DNA from: a virus
IMG/VR virus record: IMGVR_UViG_3300025316_000018
Location: 1-62,598 of that record
Direction: 5' to 3' (one strand)
Length of the DNA stretch: 62,598 nucleotides
Shown here: positions 3,412-23,282 of the stretch, piece after piece
Numbering within the stretch: position 1 is the first letter of the stretch
Layout of the letters: every line of letters starts with the position of its first letter
The notes under the pieces: model-generated
What the model saw: the letters and a program-made list of their open reading frames with translations, nothing else
What the model was told of the DNA's origin: nothing
Databases searched by the model: none
Made by a program: the position numbers and the translations under genes

Positions 3412-3575
3412 TATTTGTTAGCCTTTGGTTGTCGTGGTTGTCTTGGTTTCTTTGGAATGCCAGTTAAGCATTCACACTTATCTCTTCTATTCTCGCAACG
3501 ATTGATCTTACTGCAAGCAGTTAGTAATCGAAACAGTTGTGATTCTGGTATTGTGTATATATTCTCTTCTTCCAT
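3411..3575 (-). CDS. Cys- and Pro/Arg/Lys-containing small protein, first gene of operon
   Basis: 54 residues with Cys at 21, 27, 34 and 36 and a basic PKKPRQPRQPK tail. The spaced cysteines could bind a metal, but the pattern is not a standard zinc ribbon. GAGAAG lies upstream. It is promoter-proximal in the DHFR/td operon. Confidence 0.65.
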   Translation of the reverse strand: MEEENIYTIPESQLFRLLTACSKINRCENRRDKCECLTGIPKKPRQPRQPKANK

Positions 3576-3666: not shown

Positions 3667-3674
3667 TATAAATA
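3667..3674 (+). promoter_or_regulatory. T4-type late promoter
   Basis: Exact TATAAATA, the T4 late-promoter -10 element, 20 bp before the first gene of the curli/holin operon. It implies transcription late in infection through a sigma-gp55-like factor. Confidence 0.7.
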
Positions 3675-3694: not shown

Positions 3695-3970
3695 ATGGAT
3701 ATATTAAAATTTATAAGCGATGTGGGATTTCCAATAGCAGCCGCCTGTGTTGGATTCTACTTTGTGTATCTTACGTTGAAGTTTATTCTTGAAGGTGTGT
3801 CTGGTTCAGTCAAAGGATTGACAGGTATCATATCAGCATTGGATAGGCGTGTTGCGACAATGAACCACGATGTCTTGCGTATTGATGTACTTGTATCTAA
3901 TGCACTTCAAATCAAACCTGATGTTGATCGTATAGCACGAGCAGAACAATCTGATGCGAGGCGAGATTAA
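3695..3970 (+). CDS. Single-helix membrane protein, paralogue of next gene
   Basis: 91 residues: a short polar start containing GFP, one membrane helix (about 14-37), then an amphipathic helical tail. The ATG at 3695 follows a GGGGG stretch. The next protein shares the layout, including the GFP motif before the helix, so the pair looks like a duplication. The form would fit a holin accessory or membrane-anchored coiled coil. Its place at the head of a late operon is consistent with lysis or envelope work, but this is inference. Confidence 0.75.
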   Translation: MDILKFISDVGFPIAAACVGFYFVYLTLKFILEGVSGSVKGLTGIISALDRRVATMNHDVLRIDVLVSNALQIKPDVDRIARAEQSDARRD

Positions 3971-4242
3971 TGGATTTAGTATTATTATCAAAATCTATAA
4001 ATGAATTTGGTTTTCCAGTAATAGCATCTATAGGTATGGGTGCTATGATATATTTTATTTGGGTGTGGGCAACAACCGTAGTCAAACCTATGCTGTCGGA
4101 AGCCAGTACAACATTGATAGCACTAATAGACCGAGTTAGATTATTAGATAACGATTTGATAAGATTAACTCAGAAAGTAAATGTGGTTCTTATGTTACGG
4201 GATGTAAAGAATGAAAATTCTAATACTTCTGATACTGATTAG
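3970..4242 (+). CDS. Single-helix membrane protein, paralogue of previous gene
   Basis: 90 residues with the same plan: polar start with GFP, a membrane helix (about 15-38), and a helical charged tail rich in Leu, Asp and Arg. It starts by TAATG overlap with its paralogue and overlaps csgF by 32 nt, so translation is probably coupled. Function unknown. Confidence 0.75.
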   Translation: MDLVLLSKSINEFGFPVIASIGMGAMIYFIWVWATTVVKPMLSEASTTLIALIDRVRLLDNDLIRLTQKVNVVLMLRDVKNENSNTSDTD

Positions 4243-4642
4243 TAATAACACACAAGCAGAACAATCATTCTCATTTAAGTCACCATCATTTTCTGGTATT
4301 GGGTATTCATCCCATGTTCAAACCATAGAGAATACAGAAACCACACGAAAACAAGCAATACAAGCATCAAACTTACAAGCAGCAAAGGATGCTGCTGCAT
4401 TAGCTGGTAATACTACTCTTCAGAAGTTTCTGAACAATTTCGAAAGTCGTGTTTATGCTCAATTATCAACACAATTGATTAATAATCTATTTGGTGTCAA
4501 CCCACAAACGAGTGGTACTGTTACTATTGAGGGTAACACAATACAATACACCAAGACCGCTGATCAGATTTCCATGACTGTAACTGATGCTAGTGGTAAT
4601 ATAACTCAGGTAGTAATCCCTGTCGGTAGTCTGACATTCTGA
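4211..4642 (+). CDS. csgF: CsgF-like curli assembly protein
   Basis: 143 residues with a signal peptide (about 1-16, cut after TQA). The mature N-terminus, Ser/Phe-rich with SPSFSG, matches the segment of CsgF that plugs into the CsgG pore. A helical middle (TTLQKFLNNFESRVYAQL) and a beta C-terminus follow, as in the family (about 138 residues in E. coli). In bacteria CsgF sits on the outer side of the CsgG channel and couples export to nucleation. The csgG gene follows at once (TGATG). No CsgE gene is visible nearby. Assignment rests on pattern and neighbour, not a search. Confidence 0.8.
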   Translation: MKILILLILISNNTQAEQSFSFKSPSFSGIGYSSHVQTIENTETTRKQAIQASNLQAAKDAAALAGNTTLQKFLNNFESRVYAQLSTQLINNLFGVNPQTSGTVTIEGNTIQYTKTADQISMTVTDASGNITQVVIPVGSLTF

Positions 4643-5430
4643 TGCGTATTCTATTGTTGTGTTTATTGTTAACCGGATGTTCATCGTGGCCATCACCCTT
4701 TGTAACATGGACTAATGAACCAGAACTTTTGGATATAAAACCAAAAGAAAAGGTAATTCTGCCGTCACCAAAAGACGGTAAGATTGTTGTTGCTGTATAT
4801 TCGTTTATGGATAAGACCGGACAAAGAAAGGATTCTGCTACTATTGCAAAGTTATCATCTGCTGTAACACAGGGTGGTGAATCAATTCTGTTGAAATCAC
4901 TGGAAGATGCTGGTGGTGGTATGTGGTTTAGGGCAGTAGAACGGGTAGGTTTAGATAACCTATTGAAAGAACGACAATTGATTAGGTCGGCAAGGGATGA
5001 AGCAAAGGATGACAAGCGTATAGGTTCAATATTATATGCTGGTATGATAATCGAAGGTTCCATAGTATCGTATGACACTAATATTCGCACTGGTGGTATT
5101 GGTATACGCTATTTGGGTATAGGACCAGACACACAATATCAGGAAGATATGGTAACTGTCTCACTTCGAGCAATTAGTACACAAACTGGTGAGGTATTAA
5201 TCACCGTTAATGTACAGAAAACAATTTTGAGTTATACATTAGGTGTTGCTGTATTCAAATTTTTCGACACTGGTACACAATCATTTGAAAATGAGATTGG
5301 TGCCACTAAAACGGAAGCTGGGATATATGCATTAAAATCTGCGTTAGATTTAGCTGTAGAGGAATTGATTATTAAGGGTGAGCGAAAATCGTTATGGAAA
5401 TTTTCATCAACTTATAAAGGAAATAACTAA
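4642..5430 (+). CDS. csgG: CsgG-like outer-membrane secretion lipoprotein
   Basis: 262 residues, close to the bacterial length (277). A lipoprotein signal ends in LLTGC with Cys13 as the lipidation site. The body has the CsgG fold landmarks: KIVVAVYSFMDKTGQ, a WFRAVER stretch, the NLLKERQLIRSARDE helix, and a transmembrane beta-hairpin region around residues 135-200. CsgG forms a nonameric pore exporting curlin subunits. It is flanked by csgF and a curlin-repeat gene in a late-promoter operon. A phage might use it for export or to permeabilise the outer membrane during lysis; neither is shown. Confidence 0.9.
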   Translation: MRILLLCLLLTGCSSWPSPFVTWTNEPELLDIKPKEKVILPSPKDGKIVVAVYSFMDKTGQRKDSATIAKLSSAVTQGGESILLKSLEDAGGGMWFRAVERVGLDNLLKERQLIRSARDEAKDDKRIGSILYAGMIIEGSIVSYDTNIRTGGIGIRYLGIGPDTQYQEDMVTVSLRAISTQTGEVLITVNVQKTILSYTLGVAVFKFFDTGTQSFENEIGATKTEAGIYALKSALDLAVEELIIKGERKSLWKFSSTYKGNN

Positions 5431-6138
5431 ATGCACATCTTAAGAAACATTCTGTTGATTAGTATGCTTTTGAGTAGCCAAACAACCATGAGTGATAGTG
5501 GTGGTAATTTTGTTTACATAGACCAAACTAATGCGGACAATTCTACCGTTAGTATTACACAAACAGGATCAAATAACACAGTAGGTGATCCTAATTCAAT
5601 ATCGGCACCATCATTTGTCATTGAGGGTAATTCAATGTTCGTCACTATCCTTCAAGATGGTATGAACAACGCGATAACTGGTAACATAATAGGTGGTGGC
5701 ACAACTGCTAATATTACACAAACCGGTAACAGCAACTTTACCAACTTCAATATGGGTAACATGGGTACGTCTTCTGGTCTATTGAACATGACAATGACTG
5801 GTAGTAATAATATATCTAATATGAACATTGGATTATTACATGATTCAAGTAATTACACATACACAGCATTATTGACTGGTAGTAATAATACATTAACCAG
5901 CACAATTAATAGCAAATATACCGTAGATTCATTCACCGTCACAGGATCAAACAATGCTATCACGACAAACCAAACTGGTGCTAATGGTTCTAATAATGTT
6001 ATTGGTAATAATATTGCCATTTCCAATATTGGAAACTCTAATTCTATAAGCATCGTACAAGATGGAACAACGAATCCGAATAGTGCTATTGTCAACCTTG
6101 TGGGTAATAACGCTGCTGTGTCTGTCGTCCAACATTAA
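5431..6138 (+). CDS. Secreted curlin-repeat protein
   Basis: 235 residues with an N-terminal signal peptide (about 1-20) and then imperfect repeats of the curlin type, such as VSITQTGSNNTV, ANITQTGNSNF, LTGSNNTL and VTGSNNAI. Their regular Gln, Gly and Asn-Asn positions are the ones that stack in curli amyloid. It is probably the export substrate of the CsgG channel encoded just upstream. It resembles CsgA/CsgB by composition and repeat, not end to end. The last 77 nt overlap the next gene in another frame. Confidence 0.85.
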   Translation: MHILRNILLISMLLSSQTTMSDSGGNFVYIDQTNADNSTVSITQTGSNNTVGDPNSISAPSFVIEGNSMFVTILQDGMNNAITGNIIGGGTTANITQTGNSNFTNFNMGNMGTSSGLLNMTMTGSNNISNMNIGLLHDSSNYTYTALLTGSNNTLTSTINSKYTVDSFTVTGSNNAITTNQTGANGSNNVIGNNIAISNIGNSNSISIVQDGTTNPNSAIVNLVGNNAAVSVVQH

Positions 6139-7117
6139 TGCTGGTATTGGCAAGGTAACAGAACAGAAGGGTAGTGCATCTATTACACGAGAGAAATCGG
6201 TAATAGATGCTAAGAAAGATTCCAGTGTTGATAGTTTAGATACTATTGAAACTGGTAAAGGTGAGGTTGGTATCTCATTTGATGATGATACACAAGTAAA
6301 AGTAACCGAGAACAGTAAACTGGTCATAGATGATTTCGTATATGACCCCAAGAATAAATCTGTTGGTAAGTTAGCATTGAAATGTGCTATTGGTACTGTG
6401 AGATATGCTTCAGGTAATATTGCCCACGATAACAATAAGAATGTGGCAATCAATACACCAACAGCAACTATAGCAGTTCGTGGTACTGCATTTACTATGA
6501 CCGTAGATGAAATTGGTCAATCTATGGTCATATTGTTACCTAATTTAGATGGTAGTGTTGGTGAAATTGAGGTCAGAACTGCAATGGGTTCGGTAGTATT
6601 GAACCAAGCATTTCAAGCAACTGTGACTACATCTAATGAGATTAAACCCACTAAACCTGTGGTGTTACTTATTGCTGAGTCTGCTATAAATAACATGATG
6701 ATAGTAAAACCACCCAAGGAAATTAGTCAGAAGTTGATTGATGATAACAAAGCATCAGCATTAGACTTTAAGGGATTAGAAAAGGATGCACTATCGGTAA
6801 GGGTATTTGTTGACCCCTATGCAAAGTTCAACGAATTAAGTGTTGATTTATTGGCGATAGATTATTTGACAAACGTATTAGATAGTTTTGGTACAGTAAC
6901 AACATTTTCGGCTGGATACAATAATAGTAACCAAGTTTATATATTCGACAAAGAATCAAATTGGCTAGTCCAAAGAACGGTGAAACAGAGTGCTACATTA
7001 TTATTGAACAAAGATCGTGGTTATAGTGTGACACTTATACAAGATGGGATTACCGTGAAGATGCAAAGTGCAGATACAACCACTAATACTATTCTAATCA
7101 AACAAGGTGCAAACTAA
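6062..7117 (+). CDS. Secreted FecR-domain protein
   Basis: 351 residues. A signal peptide (about 1-27, ending INA) precedes a FecR domain (about 28-150). The domain shows IETGKGEVGISFDDDTQVKV, GTVRYASG and the INTPTATIAVRGT signature; the rest is beta-rich and unassigned. In bacteria FecR domains are periplasmic and often accompany CHASE2 cyclases, one of which is encoded convergently at 7.5-9.5 kb. The start lies 77 nt inside the curlin gene in another frame and has no strong ribosome site, so it may depend on coupling. Its stop overlaps the holin start. Confidence 0.85.
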   Translation: MEQRIRIVLLSTLWVITLLCLSSNINAGIGKVTEQKGSASITREKSVIDAKKDSSVDSLDTIETGKGEVGISFDDDTQVKVTENSKLVIDDFVYDPKNKSVGKLALKCAIGTVRYASGNIAHDNNKNVAINTPTATIAVRGTAFTMTVDEIGQSMVILLPNLDGSVGEIEVRTAMGSVVLNQAFQATVTTSNEIKPTKPVVLLIAESAINNMMIVKPPKEISQKLIDDNKASALDFKGLEKDALSVRVFVDPYAKFNELSVDLLAIDYLTNVLDSFGTVTTFSAGYNNSNQVYIFDKESNWLVQRTVKQSATLLLNKDRGYSVTLIQDGITVKMQSADTTTNTILIKQGAN

Positions 7118-7410
7118 TGGCAGTAGCAAAAACAATCGTTATAGCAAAAGAGAAAGAACACTGGACATCGACTGGTTGGAGACCAGCACTTGCGTGGAGT
7201 TATGTTTTAATATGTATATTTGACTTTGCGATAGGTCCAATTATATTCAACGTTTTGCAATATTGGAATCCTGGACAATCAATCAGTGCATATACAGCAG
7301 TTACTTTGCAGGGATCGGGGTTGTATCATCTTTCAATGGGTGCGGTATTAGGTTTAACTACTCATGGTCGTACTAAAGAGAAGATAGAAGCAGGAAAAGT
7401 AACAGAATAA
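7117..7410 (+). CDS. 3TM-type holin-like membrane protein
   Basis: 97 residues with the pattern W.STGWRP.LAW, CIFDFAIGP and a Gly/Leu-rich third hydrophobic stretch (GLYHLSMGAVLGL), as in the three-helix holins related to gene-transfer-agent holins. Holins open the inner membrane at the end of infection. It is last in the late operon, coupled by TAATG, which fits lysis timing. The endolysin is encoded 2.4 kb away on the other strand. Confidence 0.75.
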   Translation: MAVAKTIVIAKEKEHWTSTGWRPALAWSYVLICIFDFAIGPIIFNVLQYWNPGQSISAYTAVTLQGSGLYHLSMGAVLGLTTHGRTKEKIEAGKVTE

Positions 7411-7466: not shown

Positions 7467-9536
7467 CTACTTACTTGTTGGTCTGTATACCCCATCCCAG
7501 CCTTTGGGTAGTTTCTTACTGAGTTCATAATCAGCAATTCGTTGTATCATCATATCATAGTAGTAATCTAACTCACCATCAAAACATCCTTTCAACGAAT
7601 CACATAAACCCGCAGCATCTTTCCATTGCTGTGCTTGATAATGTGTAAACATTTTATTATGTGTTTCTCTGAATATGTTGCTTGGATATGTCGGTGATGT
7701 TATTACTGTATAGATGTCAACACCTTCAGATTTACCCTTTACGGAAATTGTATCTAACTTAATAAAGAACTCATTCATATGTAAAAACCCACCCAACACA
7801 TTTTCGGATTTTAGTTTATCTAATGTGTTCTTGCTTAGTATTAATGAAACTCCATAATTTTTAGTCTGTCCCTCTAATCGCGCAGCAAGATTAACTTCAT
7901 CACCCAATATATCATAACTAAATCTATCTTTAGACCCCATATTACCAATAAATACCGTTCCTGTACTGAGACCTGCCCCAACTTGTAATGGTGGTTTACC
8001 TTCAGCAACCAATTCAATATTCAATTCTGCTAATGCAACTTCCATTTCTTTTGCTGCTTTTAATGCTTTAGTTGCCTGATTCTCTACATCTAATGGGGCA
8101 CCCCACCAAGCCATTATTGCATCGCCTATCAGCTTACCAACAGTACCATCATTATCCATTATTATAGGAAGCATCTTATCCATATATCTTGTAATAAGAT
8201 TAGTTAAACCTTGAGGGTCGGTTTTATAATGTTCTGAAATAGTTGTGAATGACCTGATATCAGAAAAGTATATAGTTAGTTCTTTAGAATCACCACCCAA
8301 CTTCAACAGTTCTGGATTCTTCTGTAACTTTTCCACATAGTCAGGACTTAAATATGTTCCAAACTGCTTCTTTATCTGAAGTTTTGCTTTAAGTTCTGTG
8401 ATGAATAAGGTGGCGTGTGTGTGGCCAAATACAACTCCCCCTGCCAGAATAGGTATTGTAATGTCAATGAGATAATACAAATGGGTATATAGATACAGAG
8501 AAATAGGATAAACACTAACAATGATACCACAAAATATAAAAATTCCATACTTGATCCTTGATATTAAGATTGAGAAGATGCTAAGTATAATCATAGCAAG
8601 TATTTCTGCACCAGTACTCCAATCAGGTCTTGAAATATTGGTACCGGTTACTAGTGTATTTAGTATTGATGCTTGAAAGTTATGTGGAAAGATAGCACCG
8701 TTAGAAGTGGCGACTGGGTTGTTAAGACCTCTGGCAGTAAGTCCAACAATGACGATACTGGAATTAAAGGACTCTGGAAGGTGAATGGAGGAGTATTCTG
8801 TAAATATTGCTGGTTTAACCCATATTCTACCGATACTGTCTGTTCCAATCTTTCCAAACGTTGGTATCCTGACAGCTTCAATTGATCCATCGTTAACTTT
8901 GACTTGGAAAGATTTATCACCCGAAGCGACTCGCAATGTTTCGAGGCTGATGCTAGGGTACAATAGTCCATTGGAAGAGACCACCATTGGTACTCTTCTG
9001 GTAACGCCATCAATTTCGGGGAGTGTATTAACAACACCAACACCAGCAGCAGTATCATTAAGTGCTTGTATATTAGGTTGAATATTTTCATAAGAGATTC
9101 CCACATCACCTGTACCAATTACCGATACACCTGGTCTAAATGCGTCATAAGTTTTTGTGAATACATCATTAGTACCTGTCTGGGGTAGAACAACAGGGTA
9201 TTCAGTTAGTATTGTAGCAAAACTACTGTCCTGTCCGGATCTATCCGCATCTGGTAGAAATACATTAAATACAACAAGACCAGCACCATGATCGTAAAGT
9301 TCTTTAATAATTGAACCATACTCATTTCGTGGAAATGGCCATTGACCTTTTTGAGAAATCGTTTCATCATCTATATTTACCAGTACAATATCAGAATGTT
9401 GTATATCTTGTGTTAGAAGAGTATCAAAGTATCTTAACCTGATACTCTCCACGAATGTTGGGTCAAGTACTCTTATCCCAATGATGATTGATAATGTTAT
9501 TAATGCACACCAACGGGATAAAAGTATCTTCTTCAT
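7467..9536 (-). CDS. CHASE2-domain adenylate/guanylate cyclase
   Basis: 689 residues, full length for the architecture. An N-terminal membrane helix (about 5-22) is followed by a periplasmic CHASE2 sensor (about 25-310; SDIVLVNIDDETIS, WPFPR, VRVPMVV-like core). Three closely spaced helices (about 312-385) lead to a cytoplasmic class III cyclase domain (about 425-610). That domain has two metal Asp sites (TIYFSDIRSFT and KLIGDAIMAWWG), LGDEVNLAARLEG with the catalytic Arg, and a C-terminal helical extension. It should make cAMP or cGMP in response to an envelope signal. It lies convergent to the FecR gene and is followed by a small gene joined base to base. Class III cyclases are rare in phages. 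Confidence 0.92.
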   Translation of the reverse strand: MKKILLSRWCALITLSIIIGIRVLDPTFVESIRLRYFDTLLTQDIQHSDIVLVNIDDETISQKGQWPFPRNEYGSIIKELYDHGAGLVVFNVFLPDADRSGQDSSFATILTEYPVVLPQTGTNDVFTKTYDAFRPGVSVIGTGDVGISYENIQPNIQALNDTAAGVGVVNTLPEIDGVTRRVPMVVSSNGLLYPSISLETLRVASGDKSFQVKVNDGSIEAVRIPTFGKIGTDSIGRIWVKPAIFTEYSSIHLPESFNSSIVIVGLTARGLNNPVATSNGAIFPHNFQASILNTLVTGTNISRPDWSTGAEILAMIILSIFSILISRIKYGIFIFCGIIVSVYPISLYLYTHLYYLIDITIPILAGGVVFGHTHATLFITELKAKLQIKKQFGTYLSPDYVEKLQKNPELLKLGGDSKELTIYFSDIRSFTTISEHYKTDPQGLTNLITRYMDKMLPIIMDNDGTVGKLIGDAIMAWWGAPLDVENQATKALKAAKEMEVALAELNIELVAEGKPPLQVGAGLSTGTVFIGNMGSKDRFSYDILGDEVNLAARLEGQTKNYGVSLILSKNTLDKLKSENVLGGFLHMNEFFIKLDTISVKGKSEGVDIYTVITSPTYPSNIFRETHNKMFTHYQAQQWKDAAGLCDSLKGCFDGELDYYYDMMIQRIADYELSKKLPKGWDGVYRPTSK

Positions 9537-9790
9537 TAATCTAGGTCCTCATTCATCTTTGTGTGTATATCACATAAGAATGATTTGTAATATTCAACGA
9601 GACTGCCATTGAATGAATCTTTAAGTTCTATACAATTGGTGGCAGCTCTTCTATAACACTTCTTCTCAAAAAGTTCCACGGTTTCATTGTGTAGGTTTCT
9701 CGACAACGAATACGCAAATGTATTGAAATCATTAACGGGTATTTGAAAAGAACCCAATTCCTTTTTATGTGTGACGATTTCCATGTACAT
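9536..9790 (-). CDS. Small hypothetical protein
   Basis: 84 residues, soluble, with three Cys and a helical C-terminus. It starts by TAATG overlap with the endolysin stop; a second ATG at 9784 is possible. It shares base 9536 with the cyclase start. The C-terminal tail of the cyclase has a similar AAGLCDSLKG.FDGEL stretch to this protein's AATNCIELKDSFNGSL, so the two may share a helical repeat. Function unknown. Confidence 0.65.
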   Translation of the reverse strand: MYMEIVTHKKELGSFQIPVNDFNTFAYSLSRNLHNETVELFEKKCYRRAATNCIELKDSFNGSLVEYYKSFLCDIHTKMNEDLD

Positions 9791-10560
9791 TAGAACAAAT
9801 CCGAAAACCAGTTTCCTATAGAATCGAGAAAGTCATCATCTTTCTCTACTGCTTGTTCATCAGGTATAGCAACTTCTTCTGCAACAACTACAGCAATAGC
9901 GGCAGCAGCAATTACTGGAGTCACAACTGGTGCTGGTTCAGAAAATACATCATCACTAATTACTTTCATTGCTTCATCATAGTGTTTCTGTCTGTCTTTT
10001 AGACCAATAACCCCACCATTAATTTTCTTAGTTAATGTGACGAAATCTCCAGAATCACAGAATTGGTTTAGTTTATTTACCGACCAAAACCAACAGGAGC
10101 TAGATGCTGCACCCTCAAGAGTATTGCAATATGATACAGTTTCATCTAATGTCTTGCCAATGGATTTAGCAAAACGTGAATAATTATCCTTACCAGTAAG
10201 CTGTAAAAATCCGACCCCGCGATACTTAAACCCATCACCAGAAGCTTCTGTACCATTGCCCATGCGATCAGCATATACCTTGTTTGCTATACGTTCAGGA
10301 TTACGGTTGTATGGTGCTGCCATCGCAGCAGAGGTGAACCTTTTTGGCCATACTGAGCAAAGACCAGCGGCAGAATAGTTAAGGTTTTCTTTTAGTGCTG
10401 TGAACTGGGCAGATTCGTGGATAGTTTGACTCAAGAATCCACAAACTCTTTTCTTATTGTCTATACCATACTCAGGGAGGATCTTGTTCAATACTGCACA
10501 CAACGCATCCAAGTCTTTATTATTTGGACACAACACTTTTAATTGAGATACACTGATCAT
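9790..10560 (-). CDS. GH19 (chitinase-like) endolysin
   Basis: 256 residues. The GH19 fold is shown by GFLSQTIHESAQF with the catalytic Glu, KYRGVGFLQLTGKDNYSRF, and a C-terminal NGG...DR segment. In phages this family cleaves peptidoglycan glycan strands to lyse the cell. After about residue 205 there is an unusual Ala/Val-rich hydrophobic segment and an acidic DFLDSIGNWFSDLF tail, which could tether the enzyme to membrane or partner. The ATG at 10560 has AAGGA nine nt upstream; an upstream in-frame start at 10608 is not supported. Confidence 0.9.
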   Translation of the reverse strand: MISVSQLKVLCPNNKDLDALCAVLNKILPEYGIDNKKRVCGFLSQTIHESAQFTALKENLNYSAAGLCSVWPKRFTSAAMAAPYNRNPERIANKVYADRMGNGTEASGDGFKYRGVGFLQLTGKDNYSRFAKSIGKTLDETVSYCNTLEGAASSSCWFWSVNKLNQFCDSGDFVTLTKKINGGVIGLKDRQKHYDEAMKVISDDVFSEPAPVVTPVIAAAAIAVVVAEEVAIPDEQAVEKDDDFLDSIGNWFSDLF

Positions 10561-10588
10561 TTTATGTTCCTTAGTTAGTTTCGATATG

Positions 10589-10653
10589 TATAAATAGTTA
10601 CAGGTCACGAGACAGCCATCTCTACCTATTCTAACACTAAACGGAGTATCAGC
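10589..10653 (+). promoter_or_regulatory. Late promoter and hairpin leader of homing endonuclease gene (copy 1)
   Basis: TATAAATA at 10589-10596 is followed by a hairpin (AGGT/ACCT and GAGA/TCTC pairs), then CTATTCTAACACT and GGAG seven nt before the ATG at 10654. Two further copies lie at 12764 and 44058. Confidence 0.75.
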
Positions 10654-11445
10654 ATGACTATATATACATTAATAGATCCAACATATTTATACATCAAACA
10701 ACACTCTGTCACTAAAAAGAAATACTTCGGTAAGACTAGTAAAACAGACCCAATAAAGTATTTAGGCTCTGGCACTTACTGGTTGAGGCACATTAAGAAA
10801 CACGGTAAACAATTCGTAGAAACTTTGTGGGTTTCTGATATATATCACGATACATCTATAGTTGATATAGCATTACATTTTTCATCGGAAAATGATATAG
10901 TAGGGTCCGATGAATGGGCTAATCTACAAGTAGAAAACGGATTGGATGGAGCCAGTACTAGATCACAAGAATCGATATCCAAAGGAAAGTCCACAAACAT
11001 TGAAAGATATGGGGTAGATAATTGGGGTAAAAGTGATGCTGGTAAAGAACATAATAGAGATTCAGTACATCATCAAATATTAAATGGTTTGCACACATCA
11101 ACAAATGGTGGTAGTGAGATTATAAAGAGAACCAACGCTAGGATGTTATCTTTAGGTACACACCCTTTTCAAGGTAAACATGGTAGTGCTCGCTCATCCA
11201 AATTAGCAGAAAAATTAATATCTGATGGTACCCACAATTTCTTATCTCAAGATCATAAAGATAATGTCAGTAAGAGTAATTATACATTATCTAACAGACC
11301 AGAATACTTAGAGTTAAAATTCATATATGAGGACCTTGGGCTGAAACAACCAAAATTCTTACACATGAAATCATTAGAAGATATAGCGATATTAAGATTG
11401 GGTGTTGTTGGACAATATTTCCCATATATCAATAAAGATTGTTAA
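10654..11445 (+). CDS. GIY-YIG homing endonuclease with NUMOD motifs
   Basis: 263 residues. The N-terminal 95 residues are a GIY-YIG-type nuclease of the phage Seg-like group (YLYIKQHS...KKYFGKT, then LGSGTYWLRHIKKHG). The C-terminal part has repeated GTHPFQG- and GTHNFL-type modules (about 170-215), as in nuclease-associated modular DNA-binding regions. It should cut a specific phage site to spread its own gene. It is a lone plus-strand gene inside minus-strand genes, with its own late promoter and leader. Its start is homologous to the gene at 12836. Confidence 0.85.
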   Translation: MTIYTLIDPTYLYIKQHSVTKKKYFGKTSKTDPIKYLGSGTYWLRHIKKHGKQFVETLWVSDIYHDTSIVDIALHFSSENDIVGSDEWANLQVENGLDGASTRSQESISKGKSTNIERYGVDNWGKSDAGKEHNRDSVHHQILNGLHTSTNGGSEIIKRTNARMLSLGTHPFQGKHGSARSSKLAEKLISDGTHNFLSQDHKDNVSKSNYTLSNRPEYLELKFIYEDLGLKQPKFLHMKSLEDIAILRLGVVGQYFPYINKDC

Positions 11446-11596
11446 CTATCAAGATAAAGCTAACCAATCCCAATATTGCCGTCACATCAGCTATAATTCC
11501 TGCAAGGATTGACCAGTTATCTAACTCTAGTGTTCTGATTACTTTATACCATGTGTTCGTTTTCCTCTTAGAGACTTCTTTATTGCTTTGAGCCAT
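11429..11596 (-). CDS. Single-helix membrane protein
   Basis: 55 residues: basic N-terminus (MAQSNKEVSKRKTNTWYK) and a C-terminal hydrophobic helix of about 24 residues. GAGGG lies upstream. Its end overlaps the last 17 bp of the endonuclease gene on the other strand. No family recognised. Confidence 0.6.
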   Translation of the reverse strand: MAQSNKEVSKRKTNTWYKVIRTLELDNWSILAGIIADVTAILGLVSFILIVNNLY

Positions 11597-11635
11597 AATA
11601 TTCTTTCCCTCATCACATCACCATCAACACATGCT

Positions 11636-12415
11636 TTATACATTTTCGATATTATTTTCTTTACTTTCATTTCTATTTGTCCACGTTACTATTTCGAATC
11701 GACCATCATAGTGTTCTACTAATGCGGTCATACTTTCTACCCAGTCACCATCATTCATATACACAATACCATCAATTTCTTTGATGTCGGCAGAGTGTAT
11801 GTGACCACAAATAATGCCGTCAAACTTTCGTTTTCTACAGTATTCTAGTATATTTGTCTCAAATTCGAATATGAATGATACAGCTGTCTTGACCTTGCTC
11901 TTGATGTATTTGCTGAGTGACCAATACCCAAATCCCATCTTGTGTCTAACCCAATTGAATTTGTTGTTCAATATTAGTATTAGATCATATCCTTTATCAC
12001 CAAGTATACTTAACCAAGGTGCTAATTTAGAAATCCCATCAAACATATCACCATGAACTACAAGATATCGTTTACCGTCTATACCAATGTGTTCTATTTG
12101 ATTTACTATTTCTATATCACCAAACCCAATATTATAAGGTATCATTGGACGAAGAAACTCGTCATGATTACCGGCAATATAGATAACTCTTGTGCCTTTC
12201 TTTGCAATCTTTAATATCTGTTGGACAACATTGGAATGGGATTGTTTCCAAAACCACTTGTTCTGTTGAATTCTCCAGACATCTAGGATATCTCCAACAA
12301 GGTATAGAGTTTCACATTTATTGTGTTTAAGGAAATCTAGAAGTTGTAGGGCCTTACAATCTCTAGTACCAAGATGAACATCCGATATAAAGATTGATTT
12401 GTAGTGTTGTTTCAT
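11636..12415 (-). CDS. LpxH-like UDP-2,3-diacylglucosamine diphosphatase / metallophosphoesterase
   Basis: 259 residues of the calcineurin-like phosphoesterase fold with all metal motifs in order: SDVHLG (11-16), GDILDVWR, AGNHDE, VHGD and CGHIHSA. The GDxLDxW and NHDExLR variants are typical of the LpxH group, which cleaves UDP-diacylglucosamine to lipid X in lipid A synthesis, at the inner-membrane surface. A different phosphodiester substrate is possible. It lies last but one in a short minus-strand run between two homing endonuclease insertions and is coupled to a membrane peptide gene upstream. In a phage it may alter lipopolysaccharide or the envelope. Confidence 0.85.
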   Translation of the reverse strand: MKQHYKSIFISDVHLGTRDCKALQLLDFLKHNKCETLYLVGDILDVWRIQQNKWFWKQSHSNVVQQILKIAKKGTRVIYIAGNHDEFLRPMIPYNIGFGDIEIVNQIEHIGIDGKRYLVVHGDMFDGISKLAPWLSILGDKGYDLILILNNKFNWVRHKMGFGYWSLSKYIKSKVKTAVSFIFEFETNILEYCRKRKFDGIICGHIHSADIKEIDGIVYMNDGDWVESMTALVEHYDGRFEIVTWTNRNESKENNIENV

Positions 12416-12763: not shown

Positions 12764-12835
12764 TATAAATAGTTATAGGTCACGAGATTGGCGTCTCTAC
12801 CTATTCTAATACTTTCACGGAGCATCAGCATTAAT
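12764..12835 (+). promoter_or_regulatory. Late promoter and hairpin leader of homing endonuclease gene (copy 2)
   Basis: TATAAATA at 12764-12771, hairpin ATAGGT/ACCTAT plus GAGA/TCTC, then CTATTCTAATACT and GGAG. Where copies 1 and 3 have ATG, this copy has ATT (12830-12832), so the start moves to the ATG at 12836. Confidence 0.75.
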
Positions 12836-13606
12836 ATGTATACAGAAATAATACCAACATATCTTTACATCAAACAACATTCAGTAACAGGTCTAAAATA
12901 TTTCGGTAAGACTACAAAACCTGATCCAATAAAATGTCTAGGCTCAGGTAAGTATTGGAAATCCCACATCAAGAAACACGGCAAAGAGCATGTGGTGACT
13001 TTATGGTGTCAGTTGTTTGATACCCAAGAATTACTAACGGATTTTGCATTATTATTTTCTGAACACTGGGATATTGTTAATTCTAAAGTGTGGGCCAATC
13101 TAATATTAGAAAATGGATTAGATGGTACAATACCAGGAACTATTTTCGGTCCAAGATCGGATGAAACAAAAGCAAAAATATCAGCATCCCATATAGGTAA
13201 AATAGTTTCTGATGAAACAAAAGCAAAACTATCAGAAATAAACACTGGGAAAGTTGTTTCCACCGAAACAAAAGCAAAAATATCAGCATCTAATACAGGA
13301 CAGAAAAGGACGGAAGAAACCAAGGCAAAAATGTCAGCATCTCGCATAGGTATGAAAGTTTCTGATGAGGTGAGAATTAACATGTCTAAACCAAAATCAG
13401 ACCAACATAAAGTAAACTTAACTATTGCTCAAAAATTAAGGTGGATCAATAATCCTTGTACTGATGAAACTAAATTAAAAATGTCTAATATCAAAAAGGG
13501 AATACCAAAACGAATAATAGAATGTCCGCAATGTGGTAAATCTGGTGGAGAACCACAAATGTGTCGATGGCATTTCAATAATTGTAAATCCCTTAGTGAC
13601 GATTAA
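12836..13606 (+). CDS. GIY-YIG homing endonuclease with NUMOD3 repeats and zinc motif
   Basis: 256 residues. The nuclease half (YLYIKQHSVTGLKYFGKT, LGSGKYWKSHIKKHG) matches the gene at 10654. At least four NUMOD3-type repeats follow (about 110-190), each with DETKAKIS-like and IGK/TGK segments. The C-terminus has a CPQCG...H..NCK zinc-binding motif (about 230-250), also found in the endonuclease at 62 kb. The gene is plus-strand, alone, with its own late promoter. ATG 12836 is the first usable start; see the ATT at 12830. Confidence 0.88.
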   Translation: MYTEIIPTYLYIKQHSVTGLKYFGKTTKPDPIKCLGSGKYWKSHIKKHGKEHVVTLWCQLFDTQELLTDFALLFSEHWDIVNSKVWANLILENGLDGTIPGTIFGPRSDETKAKISASHIGKIVSDETKAKLSEINTGKVVSTETKAKISASNTGQKRTEETKAKMSASRIGMKVSDEVRINMSKPKSDQHKVNLTIAQKLRWINNPCTDETKLKMSNIKKGIPKRIIECPQCGKSGGEPQMCRWHFNNCKSLSDD

Positions 13607-22884: not shown

Positions 22885-23282
22885 ATTAATTCCATTTGTT
22901 AATGTTACTATGTTATGAGATACGCTCAACCGTACCTGTTTGCTTTTAACTTCCACTGCTTACTGTATAAGGTGATCAACCTCGTCTCGTCAGTGTCAAA
23001 CTCGCTAACCTTGATAGTCGACATCCAGTTAGTTTAAAGTGCATTATCCGATACACGGATTTTTCCATAATAACATTAACAAATGGAGTGCCGTCTTCAA
23101 CCTCTTTACAGTCTTATGACTTACGGCATTGCCAATCCTCGCACATGTTTTTAGTATGAGCAATAATAAGTGCTTTCTACCACTATGCGTCCATAATGTT
23201 TCGACTTTCAGCATTGCCGTACCACCCGATGTGTGCATAGTTTAGAGGCATGGATGGTAAATTAGTTATAAAGTGGACATTT
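22885..23282. other. About 400-bp stretch without a gene inside the tRNA cluster
   Basis: No credible ORF. At 23084-23129 (minus) a six-of-seven-pair acceptor stem (ATGCCGT with ACGGCAC) is followed by TCCA, as at a tRNA 3' end, but only 28 nt lie between the arms, so it looks like a collapsed tRNA gene. GCATTGCC recurs at 23126 and 23211. Confidence 0.45.

Follow-up and report, generated by a model that had tools for sequence, protein, structure and literature searches.

A predicted CHASE2 adenylate cyclase beside the curli secretion module of a T4-like phage, with an apparently exchangeable catalytic half

What does a membrane sensor cyclase do in a phage genome, where it converges on an operon encoding a periplasmic FecR protein? 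The question is raised by a 62,598-nucleotide stretch of DNA, referred to here as the window, which covers positions 1 to 62,598 of IMG/VR virus record IMGVR_UViG_3300025316_000018. The locus belongs to an already published phage module built around the secretion of curli, a surface amyloid fibre, and shows it in a rearranged layout. The features that are apparently unreported in the literature on this module are (i) a swappable catalytic half of the cyclase, (ii) the replacement of an active-site Asn by Ser, (iii) a curlin-like tail on the FecR protein, and (iv) placement in an endolysin operon. Phage-encoded second-messenger sensors are rarely considered, and the CHASE2 cyclase is abundant in viromes.

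The preliminary description took the cyclase to belong to the phage, and the surrounding genes agree. The contig, filed as a virus record, is that of a T4-like phage, with T4-type helicase, primase, RNR, RNase H, DHFR, ThyA, and endolysin genes and three tRNAs; its gp41-type helicase is about 62% identical to those of cyanophages. Because an independent contig, L004, shows the same gene order around the cyclase, host misassembly is unlikely. An origin in host DNA was likewise rejected on the basis of this repeated layout and of the separate clade formed by the phage cyclases.

Other features of these contigs may be recorded here. Between tRNA-Thr and tRNA-Asn, window positions 23221-23257 (minus strand) match the Rfam abiF RNA with 39.7 bits against a gathering threshold of 37 and could represent a phage mimic of an abortive-infection RNA. 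A calcineurin-like phosphoesterase at 11636-12415 (minus strand) weakly resembles LpxH-type lipid A enzymes, with scores well under the equivalog cut-offs. In L004, a 600-aa thymidylate synthase ORF (10150-11952) matches the enzyme as two segments, of 107 and 219 aa, on either side of an in-frame insert that is possibly an intein. L005 and L006, relatives of the window phage, carry permuted/alphaproteobacterial-type tmRNAs (L005 15518-15908; L006 15239-15535 and 16717-16873), and L006 also harbors a Polynucleobacter-1 RNA; these RNAs offer hints as to the hosts.

The cyclase ORF occurs once in the contig and matches Pfam CHASE2 over residues 15-323 (E 1.7e-35) and Guanylate_cyc over residues 418-603 (E 6.6e-19), both far over cut-off. 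Its AlphaFold2 model has a mean pLDDT of 88.6 and comprises an N-terminal transmembrane helix (8-24) followed by the periplasmic CHASE2 domain, membrane helices at 307-325, 331-353, and the start of 360-392, a cyclase core (416-613), and a helical tail (619-673). CHASE2 is thus flanked by N-terminal and C-terminal membrane helices, as in CHASE2 receptors. The only segment with pLDDT below 50, residues 582-586, is likely a surface loop in the model. The ORF, its Pfam domains, and the model all support the original description of an intact 689-residue membrane sensor cyclase.

The closest solved catalytic domains are those of Cya2, CyaB, OaPAC, and CyaC. Both metal-binding aspartates and the catalytic arginine that had been claimed for the protein are found as D426, D472, and R553, and the aspartate pair is kept in 97/97 phage copies. 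The adenine-selecting K468 and D542 and the transition-state N549 are also present, so that the full set of six catalytic residues is that of a canonical adenylate cyclase. The product had initially been given as cAMP or cGMP. In the printed alignment, Lys468 occupies the position of a Glu in the guanylyl cyclase Cya2 (2w01); cAMP is therefore favored, a guanylate cyclase identity is unsupported, and the residue set as a whole predicts cAMP, not cGMP. The enzyme type is well supported by these residues, and the protein is very probably an active adenylate cyclase.

Table 1. Features of the cyclase locus and the facing curli operon (window coordinates)
Feature	Position	Strand	Basis or remark
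T4-late-promoter-like TATAAATA	3667..3674	+	about 22 nt before the first ATG of the curli operon (3696)
Small membrane and coiled-coil-like protein 1 (phrog_18771)	3696..3970	+	ORF as listed starts at 3539
Small membrane protein 2, paralogue of protein 1 (phrog_18771)	3970..4242	+	
CsgF, curli secretion chaperone	4211..4642	+	Pfam CsgF E 2.1e-15
CsgG, outer-membrane curli secretion channel, lipoprotein-type N-terminus	4642..5430	+	Pfam CsgG E 3.4e-53
Curlin-repeat protein, CsgA/B-like fibre subunit	5431..6138	+	Curlin_rpt E 0.003, just under cut-off
Periplasmic FecR-domain protein	6062..7117	+	Pfam FecR E 1.1e-8
97-aa holin-like membrane protein, final gene of the plus-strand operon	7117..7410	+	phrog_3427 holin E 1.3e-4
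Perfect 13-bp inverted repeat between the convergent genes	7420-7432/7448-7460		read from the sequence
CHASE2-class III adenylate cyclase (predicted)	7467..9536	-	689 aa, uninterrupted from its ATG start
Block that differs by exchange from sister phage L004: catalytic domain, residues 420-644	7605..8277	-	blastn and sliding identity
Cyclase catalytic domain, residues 418-603, with D426, K468, D472, D542, N549, R553	7728..8285	-	Pfam, residue alignment, model
CHASE2 region with the first membrane helix, residues 15-323	8568..9494	-	Pfam and AlphaFold2 model
84-aa protein resembling the cyclase C-terminal tail, overlaps cyclase start	9536..9790	-	BLASTP E 5e-6
GH19-like endolysin, upstream of the cyclase in one closely packed run	9790..10608	-	phrog_181 endolysin E 5e-71

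On the plus strand, two small membrane proteins are followed by CsgF, CsgG, a curlin-repeat protein, FecR, and a holin-like protein, while on the minus strand the genes for endolysin, the 84-aa protein, and the cyclase follow one another with overlapping frames (Table 1). The FecR gene does converge on the cyclase as first described, with the 97-aa holin-like gene and a hairpin in between; the inverted repeat of this hairpin is a probable bidirectional terminator. Repeats are visible in the translation of the curlin-repeat protein, and its gene is syntenic with the curlin genes of Melnitz and HTVC008M. No kinase domain is found in the two ~90-aa upstream proteins with Pfam (both) or NCBIfam (first). 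The 97-aa protein also resembles Pfam GTA_holin_3TM (E 5.8e-4, under cut-off), and its holin-like assignment is tentative.

Within the endolysin operon the cyclase comes third, and the order endolysin-84 aa-cyclase recurs in L004. Because the gene lies in an overlapping endolysin run with the same layout in both phages, it is placed in a predicted lysis operon there. The 84-aa tail-like protein is directly upstream of the cyclase in L004 too. Endolysin homologues lie at most about 3.2 kb from the module in 18 phage loci including the window, and holin-like genes are close to it in 6 (both raw counts); an endolysin is near the module in a minority of loci only. As for transcription, TATAAATA precedes the first curli-operon gene family in 16/139 cases versus 45/781 control ORFs (5.8%). 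It is not enriched across the window (10 seen versus 9.7 expected) and was discarded as a general late-promoter signal there; its position ahead of the curli operon weakly suggests late transcription of that operon.

The FecR protein comprises a signal peptide, a FecR domain (60-156), a disordered linker (232-279), and a small C-terminal beta domain (AlphaFold2 pLDDT 77). Its fold matches the PupR periplasmic/cell-surface-signalling domain (E 6.5e-5), which together with the Pfam match identifies a periplasmic FecR domain of the classical FecR/PupR regulators; a search of its profile against PDB sequences returned no match. In the model, the signal peptide runs straight into the FecR domain, and both a cytoplasmic anti-sigma domain and a mid-protein membrane helix are absent, ruling out a classical anti-sigma factor. 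The C-terminus is a curlin-like half-repeat (N-x5-Q strand) in 54/65 phage FecR proteins, compared with a mean of 2.3 on shuffling and 6/840 internal windows. This tail, which goes undetected by the Pfam curlin model, suggests that FecR may touch the curlin fibre physically.

How general is the arrangement? Cyclases of this kind had been called rare in phages, a claim that was rejected: at least 558 IMG/VR stretches, possibly redundant, encode relatives, and rarity applies only to deposited records, where 8/50,697 carry one (HTVC008M, Melnitz phages, and two Acinetobacter assemblies that match in the catalytic part only). Nor is the combination novel, as the cyclase, FecR, and curli module is already present in PMC9599517, HTVC008M, and Melnitz. 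Co-occurrence of FecR, CHASE2, and CsgG was found among 91 non-duplicate phage cyclase loci, with FecR in 71/91 and CsgG in 66/91. Most of the 20 loci without FecR end at a contig edge near the operon side, and FecR and CsgG accompany nearly every phage cyclase whose contig is long enough; L058 and L073, with no curli or FecR matches within about 9 kb on each side, are true exceptions. Curlin-repeat genes are almost always there in phage modules. Among the 71 loci with FecR, 62 have the cyclase downstream on the same strand, 8 are convergent (the window, L004, and six others), and one is divergent; the cyclase lies several kb from the curli operon in some phages.

The FecR-cyclase pairing had also been described as seen in bacteria, and CHASE2-FecR neighbors are indeed common there, with cyclase or other outputs, as in a Burkholderia operon (PMC5192318). 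No CsgG was found near the bacterial copies sampled. Five contigs (L093, L094, L095, L115, L136) are filed as bacterial MAGs (Rhodobacteraceae, Flavobacteriaceae, Pirellulales) and encode cyclases of the phage type, accompanied in most cases by the phage curli module; they are probably mis-binned phage contigs and were counted as phage.

The 97 phage cyclases fall into four active-site types: Thr-Asn (56), Asp-Ser (29), Asp-Asn (7, including the window), and Ser-Asn (5). Of 46 bacterial relatives, a sample confined to the nearest ones, 43 are Ser-Asn or Thr-Asn, three are of other types, and none is Asp-Ser. Loss of the transition-state Asn should lower cyclase activity. All the same, the 29/97 phage cyclases in which Ser replaces it are under purifying selection, and the Asp-Ser site is the least explained feature of the family. 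Wherever dS is unsaturated, the catalytic domain gives dN/dS values of about 0.02-0.15, indicative of strong purifying selection.

In a tree with 22 bacterial sequences, all sampled phage cyclases group as a single clade (SH-aLRT 100, stem 0.87), within which the two halves of the gene have different histories. Half-to-half distance correlations reach 0.86 within CHASE2 and 0.84 within the catalytic domain, and only 0.18-0.25 between the two. Each of the four catalytic types has roughly one origin on the catalytic tree, whereas the sensor tree needs 22 changes in all; 17 of these concern the Asp-Ser type, at least 13 being forced by well-supported branches, and 108/500 shuffles do as well. CHASE2 is 91% identical (dS 0.29) between the window and L004, compared with 51% for the catalytic domain, and the exchanged block has no DNA match in L004 while its flanks retain 83-87% identity. 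These comparisons indicate that phages keep the sensor half and exchange the catalytic half as a swappable cassette. Synonymous sites within a catalytic type are near saturation for most pairs, and the alleles are therefore old and maintained; a recent transfer of the Asp-Asn domain among the window, L005, and L006 was rejected on the same grounds.

One clear case points to a mechanism. L005 and L033 share 97-98% DNA identity over several kb on both sides of a replaced block that contains only the catalytic domain and an adjacent nuclease cassette (L005 11184-12795 versus L033 4579-5199). The nuclease ORF sits at a fixed site and the flanking DNA is replaced, which would be the signature expected of homing-endonuclease co-conversion; the L005 copy is identical in a second IMG record, L010. 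In L005 and L006, a GIY-YIG-like ORF with a leader of TATAAATA and a hairpin interrupts the cyclase after residue about 585, and L009 carries a similar cassette in antisense near residue 328. A self-splicing intron was rejected for the split genes, since Rfam gives no intron match there and almost the whole insert is taken up by the nuclease ORF. No nuclease is found inside the cyclase gene of the window or L004, though a swap between these two is seen. Upstream of the window endolysin, two cassettes with the same leader lie at 10589 and 12764.

The mobile nuclease cassette was observed in 27 IMG/VR contigs (window 10589-11445 and 12764-13606; L005, L006, L009, L173-L199). Its conserved leader consists of TATAAATA, a hairpin ATAGGTCRCGA...CCTATTCTAA, and a ribosome site, and precedes both GIY-YIG-like and unrelated HNH-like ORFs.

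A broader proposal is that aquatic phages keep one envelope-sensing cyclase in several catalytic versions (Thr-Asn, Asp-Ser, Asp-Asn, and Ser-Asn) and exchange these beneath an unchanging sensor, at least in part through homing endonucleases. The preserved Asp-Ser allele would then point to another product or mode of regulation and to an arms race over second-messenger output. This proposal is somewhat unlikely as a whole; if true, selfish nucleases reshuffle the output of a viral signalling protein.

What, then, might the cyclase do? There is about an even chance that it is a FecR-coupled, envelope/curli-sensing adenylate cyclase that acts late in infection and provides the signalling component of a virus-borne curli (type VIII) secretion module. 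The periplasmic FecR protein would partner the CHASE2 sensor, a pairing that is rather likely. FecR has a folded domain in the periplasm, a linker that is long and flexible, and a tail that resembles curlin; it could thus seed the CsgG channel or plug it, and inform CHASE2 whether curlin subunits are leaving the cell. Curli or envelope status as the input is plausible but slightly doubtful. The paired cyclase domains in the cytoplasm would change in response and cAMP would rise late in infection; host proteins responsive to cAMP would then adjust envelope physiology or lysis timing, an output that can be put forward only tentatively. The position of the cyclase as third gene of the endolysin operon and the holin-like gene closing the curli operon fit a coupling to lysis. 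Against this reading, no cNMP-binding protein was seen among the window proteins scanned, and OM43 cells infected with Melnitz did not clump (PMC9004378). CHASE2 distances correlate with those of FecR at 0.36 and with those of the cyclase's own catalytic domain at 0.24; the bootstrap interval spans 0, so closer tracking of FecR is suggestive and not significant. If this scheme is right, viruses possess a full circuit in which amyloid is secreted and sensed and cAMP gives the signal.

Intact catalytic residues would also suit a cyclase that simply raises host cAMP and resets metabolism via a CRP-like regulator, with FecR and curli as unrelated passengers of a hypervariable region. In several phages the cyclase is not part of the curli operon but convergent with it (8 loci), divergent (1 locus), or several kilobases distant. 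This and the solitary cyclases of L058 and L073 speak for such a free-standing cargo gene, but curli and FecR genes stand alongside in 66-71/91 contigs across many layouts and FecR-CHASE2 pairing extends to bacteria, leaving this explanation fairly unlikely. It is also conceivable that CsgG/F forms an outer-membrane pore in lysis, independently of curli and timed by the cyclase. CsgGF has been proposed to serve lysis timing in Melnitz (PMC9004378). The endolysin-84 aa-cyclase operon and the holin-like gene, found in the window, L004, and partly in L005 and L009, are in keeping with a pore; the near-constant presence of curlin-repeat genes argues for fibre secretion instead, and the minority of loci with a nearby endolysin adds to making this an improbable account.

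The cyclic nucleotide could also be aimed at defence or competition. Phages would then swap catalytic types to escape a factor of the host or of a rival phage, or to keep their cyclase from forming mixed dimers with those of co-infecting phages, and some types (Asp/Ser) may make a different nucleotide. The scatter of catalytic types on the sensor tree, set against about one clade each on the catalytic tree, and the purifying selection on the Asn-to-Ser site speak for this idea. Gene conversion by homing endonucleases can, however, yield swaps without selection, and no defence gene partner was seen, so that it is improbable. The notion of host DNA, misassembly, or a decaying pseudogene draws on the bacterial origin of the gene in the distant past and on the homing-endonuclease insertions that split some relatives; it is essentially refuted by the intact window gene, the matching arrangement in L004, the single phage clade on its long stem, and low dN/dS.

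The proposed FecR-coupled sensor cyclase is best placed by comparison with known systems. Curli genes csgF/G in pelagimyophages were first reported in 2020 (PMC7029224); the fuller module, which includes FecR and adenylate cyclase, was described in aquatic phages in 2022 (PMC9599517). Like the type VIII module of pelagiphages HTVC008M and Melnitz, the window has small membrane proteins, csgF, csgG, curlin, and FecR in order and a CHASE2 cyclase nearby, which is 36% identical over its full length to the pelagiphage cyclase. Unlike theirs, its cyclase lies on the opposite strand within the endolysin operon, departing from the usual but not strictly defining same-strand position downstream of FecR; the window has a single curlin gene, and a holin-like gene follows FecR; and the catalytic type is Asp-Asn, compared with Asp-Ser in Melnitz and Ser-Asn in HTVC008M. 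PMC9599517 names the upstream genes of the module histidine kinases ("HK"), whereas the corresponding window proteins are only ~90 aa long and those of HTVC008M and Melnitz are similarly small.

Bacterial CHASE2 class III cyclases, such as Bradyrhizobium/Afipia relatives L096 and L097, share the order of CHASE2 domain, membrane helices, cyclase domain, and conserved WDG tail, and frequently have a FecR neighbor; S. meliloti CHASE2 cyclases are named in PMC13001267. The phage copies differ in forming one separate clade with about 32% identity to them. The Burkholderia biofilm operon likewise encodes a periplasmic FecR protein next to a CHASE2 membrane sensor, but its output is a histidine kinase and a response regulator instead of a cyclase, and its FecR protein has LysM and lacks the curlin-like tail (PMC5192318). 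Finally, the freestanding homing endonucleases of T4-like phages, the subject of review PMC2988022, also insert in or near genes, co-convert their flanks, and have a late-promoter-like start; the cassettes described here differ in targeting a signalling gene and, in L005/L033, in a tract that carries an entire catalytic domain.
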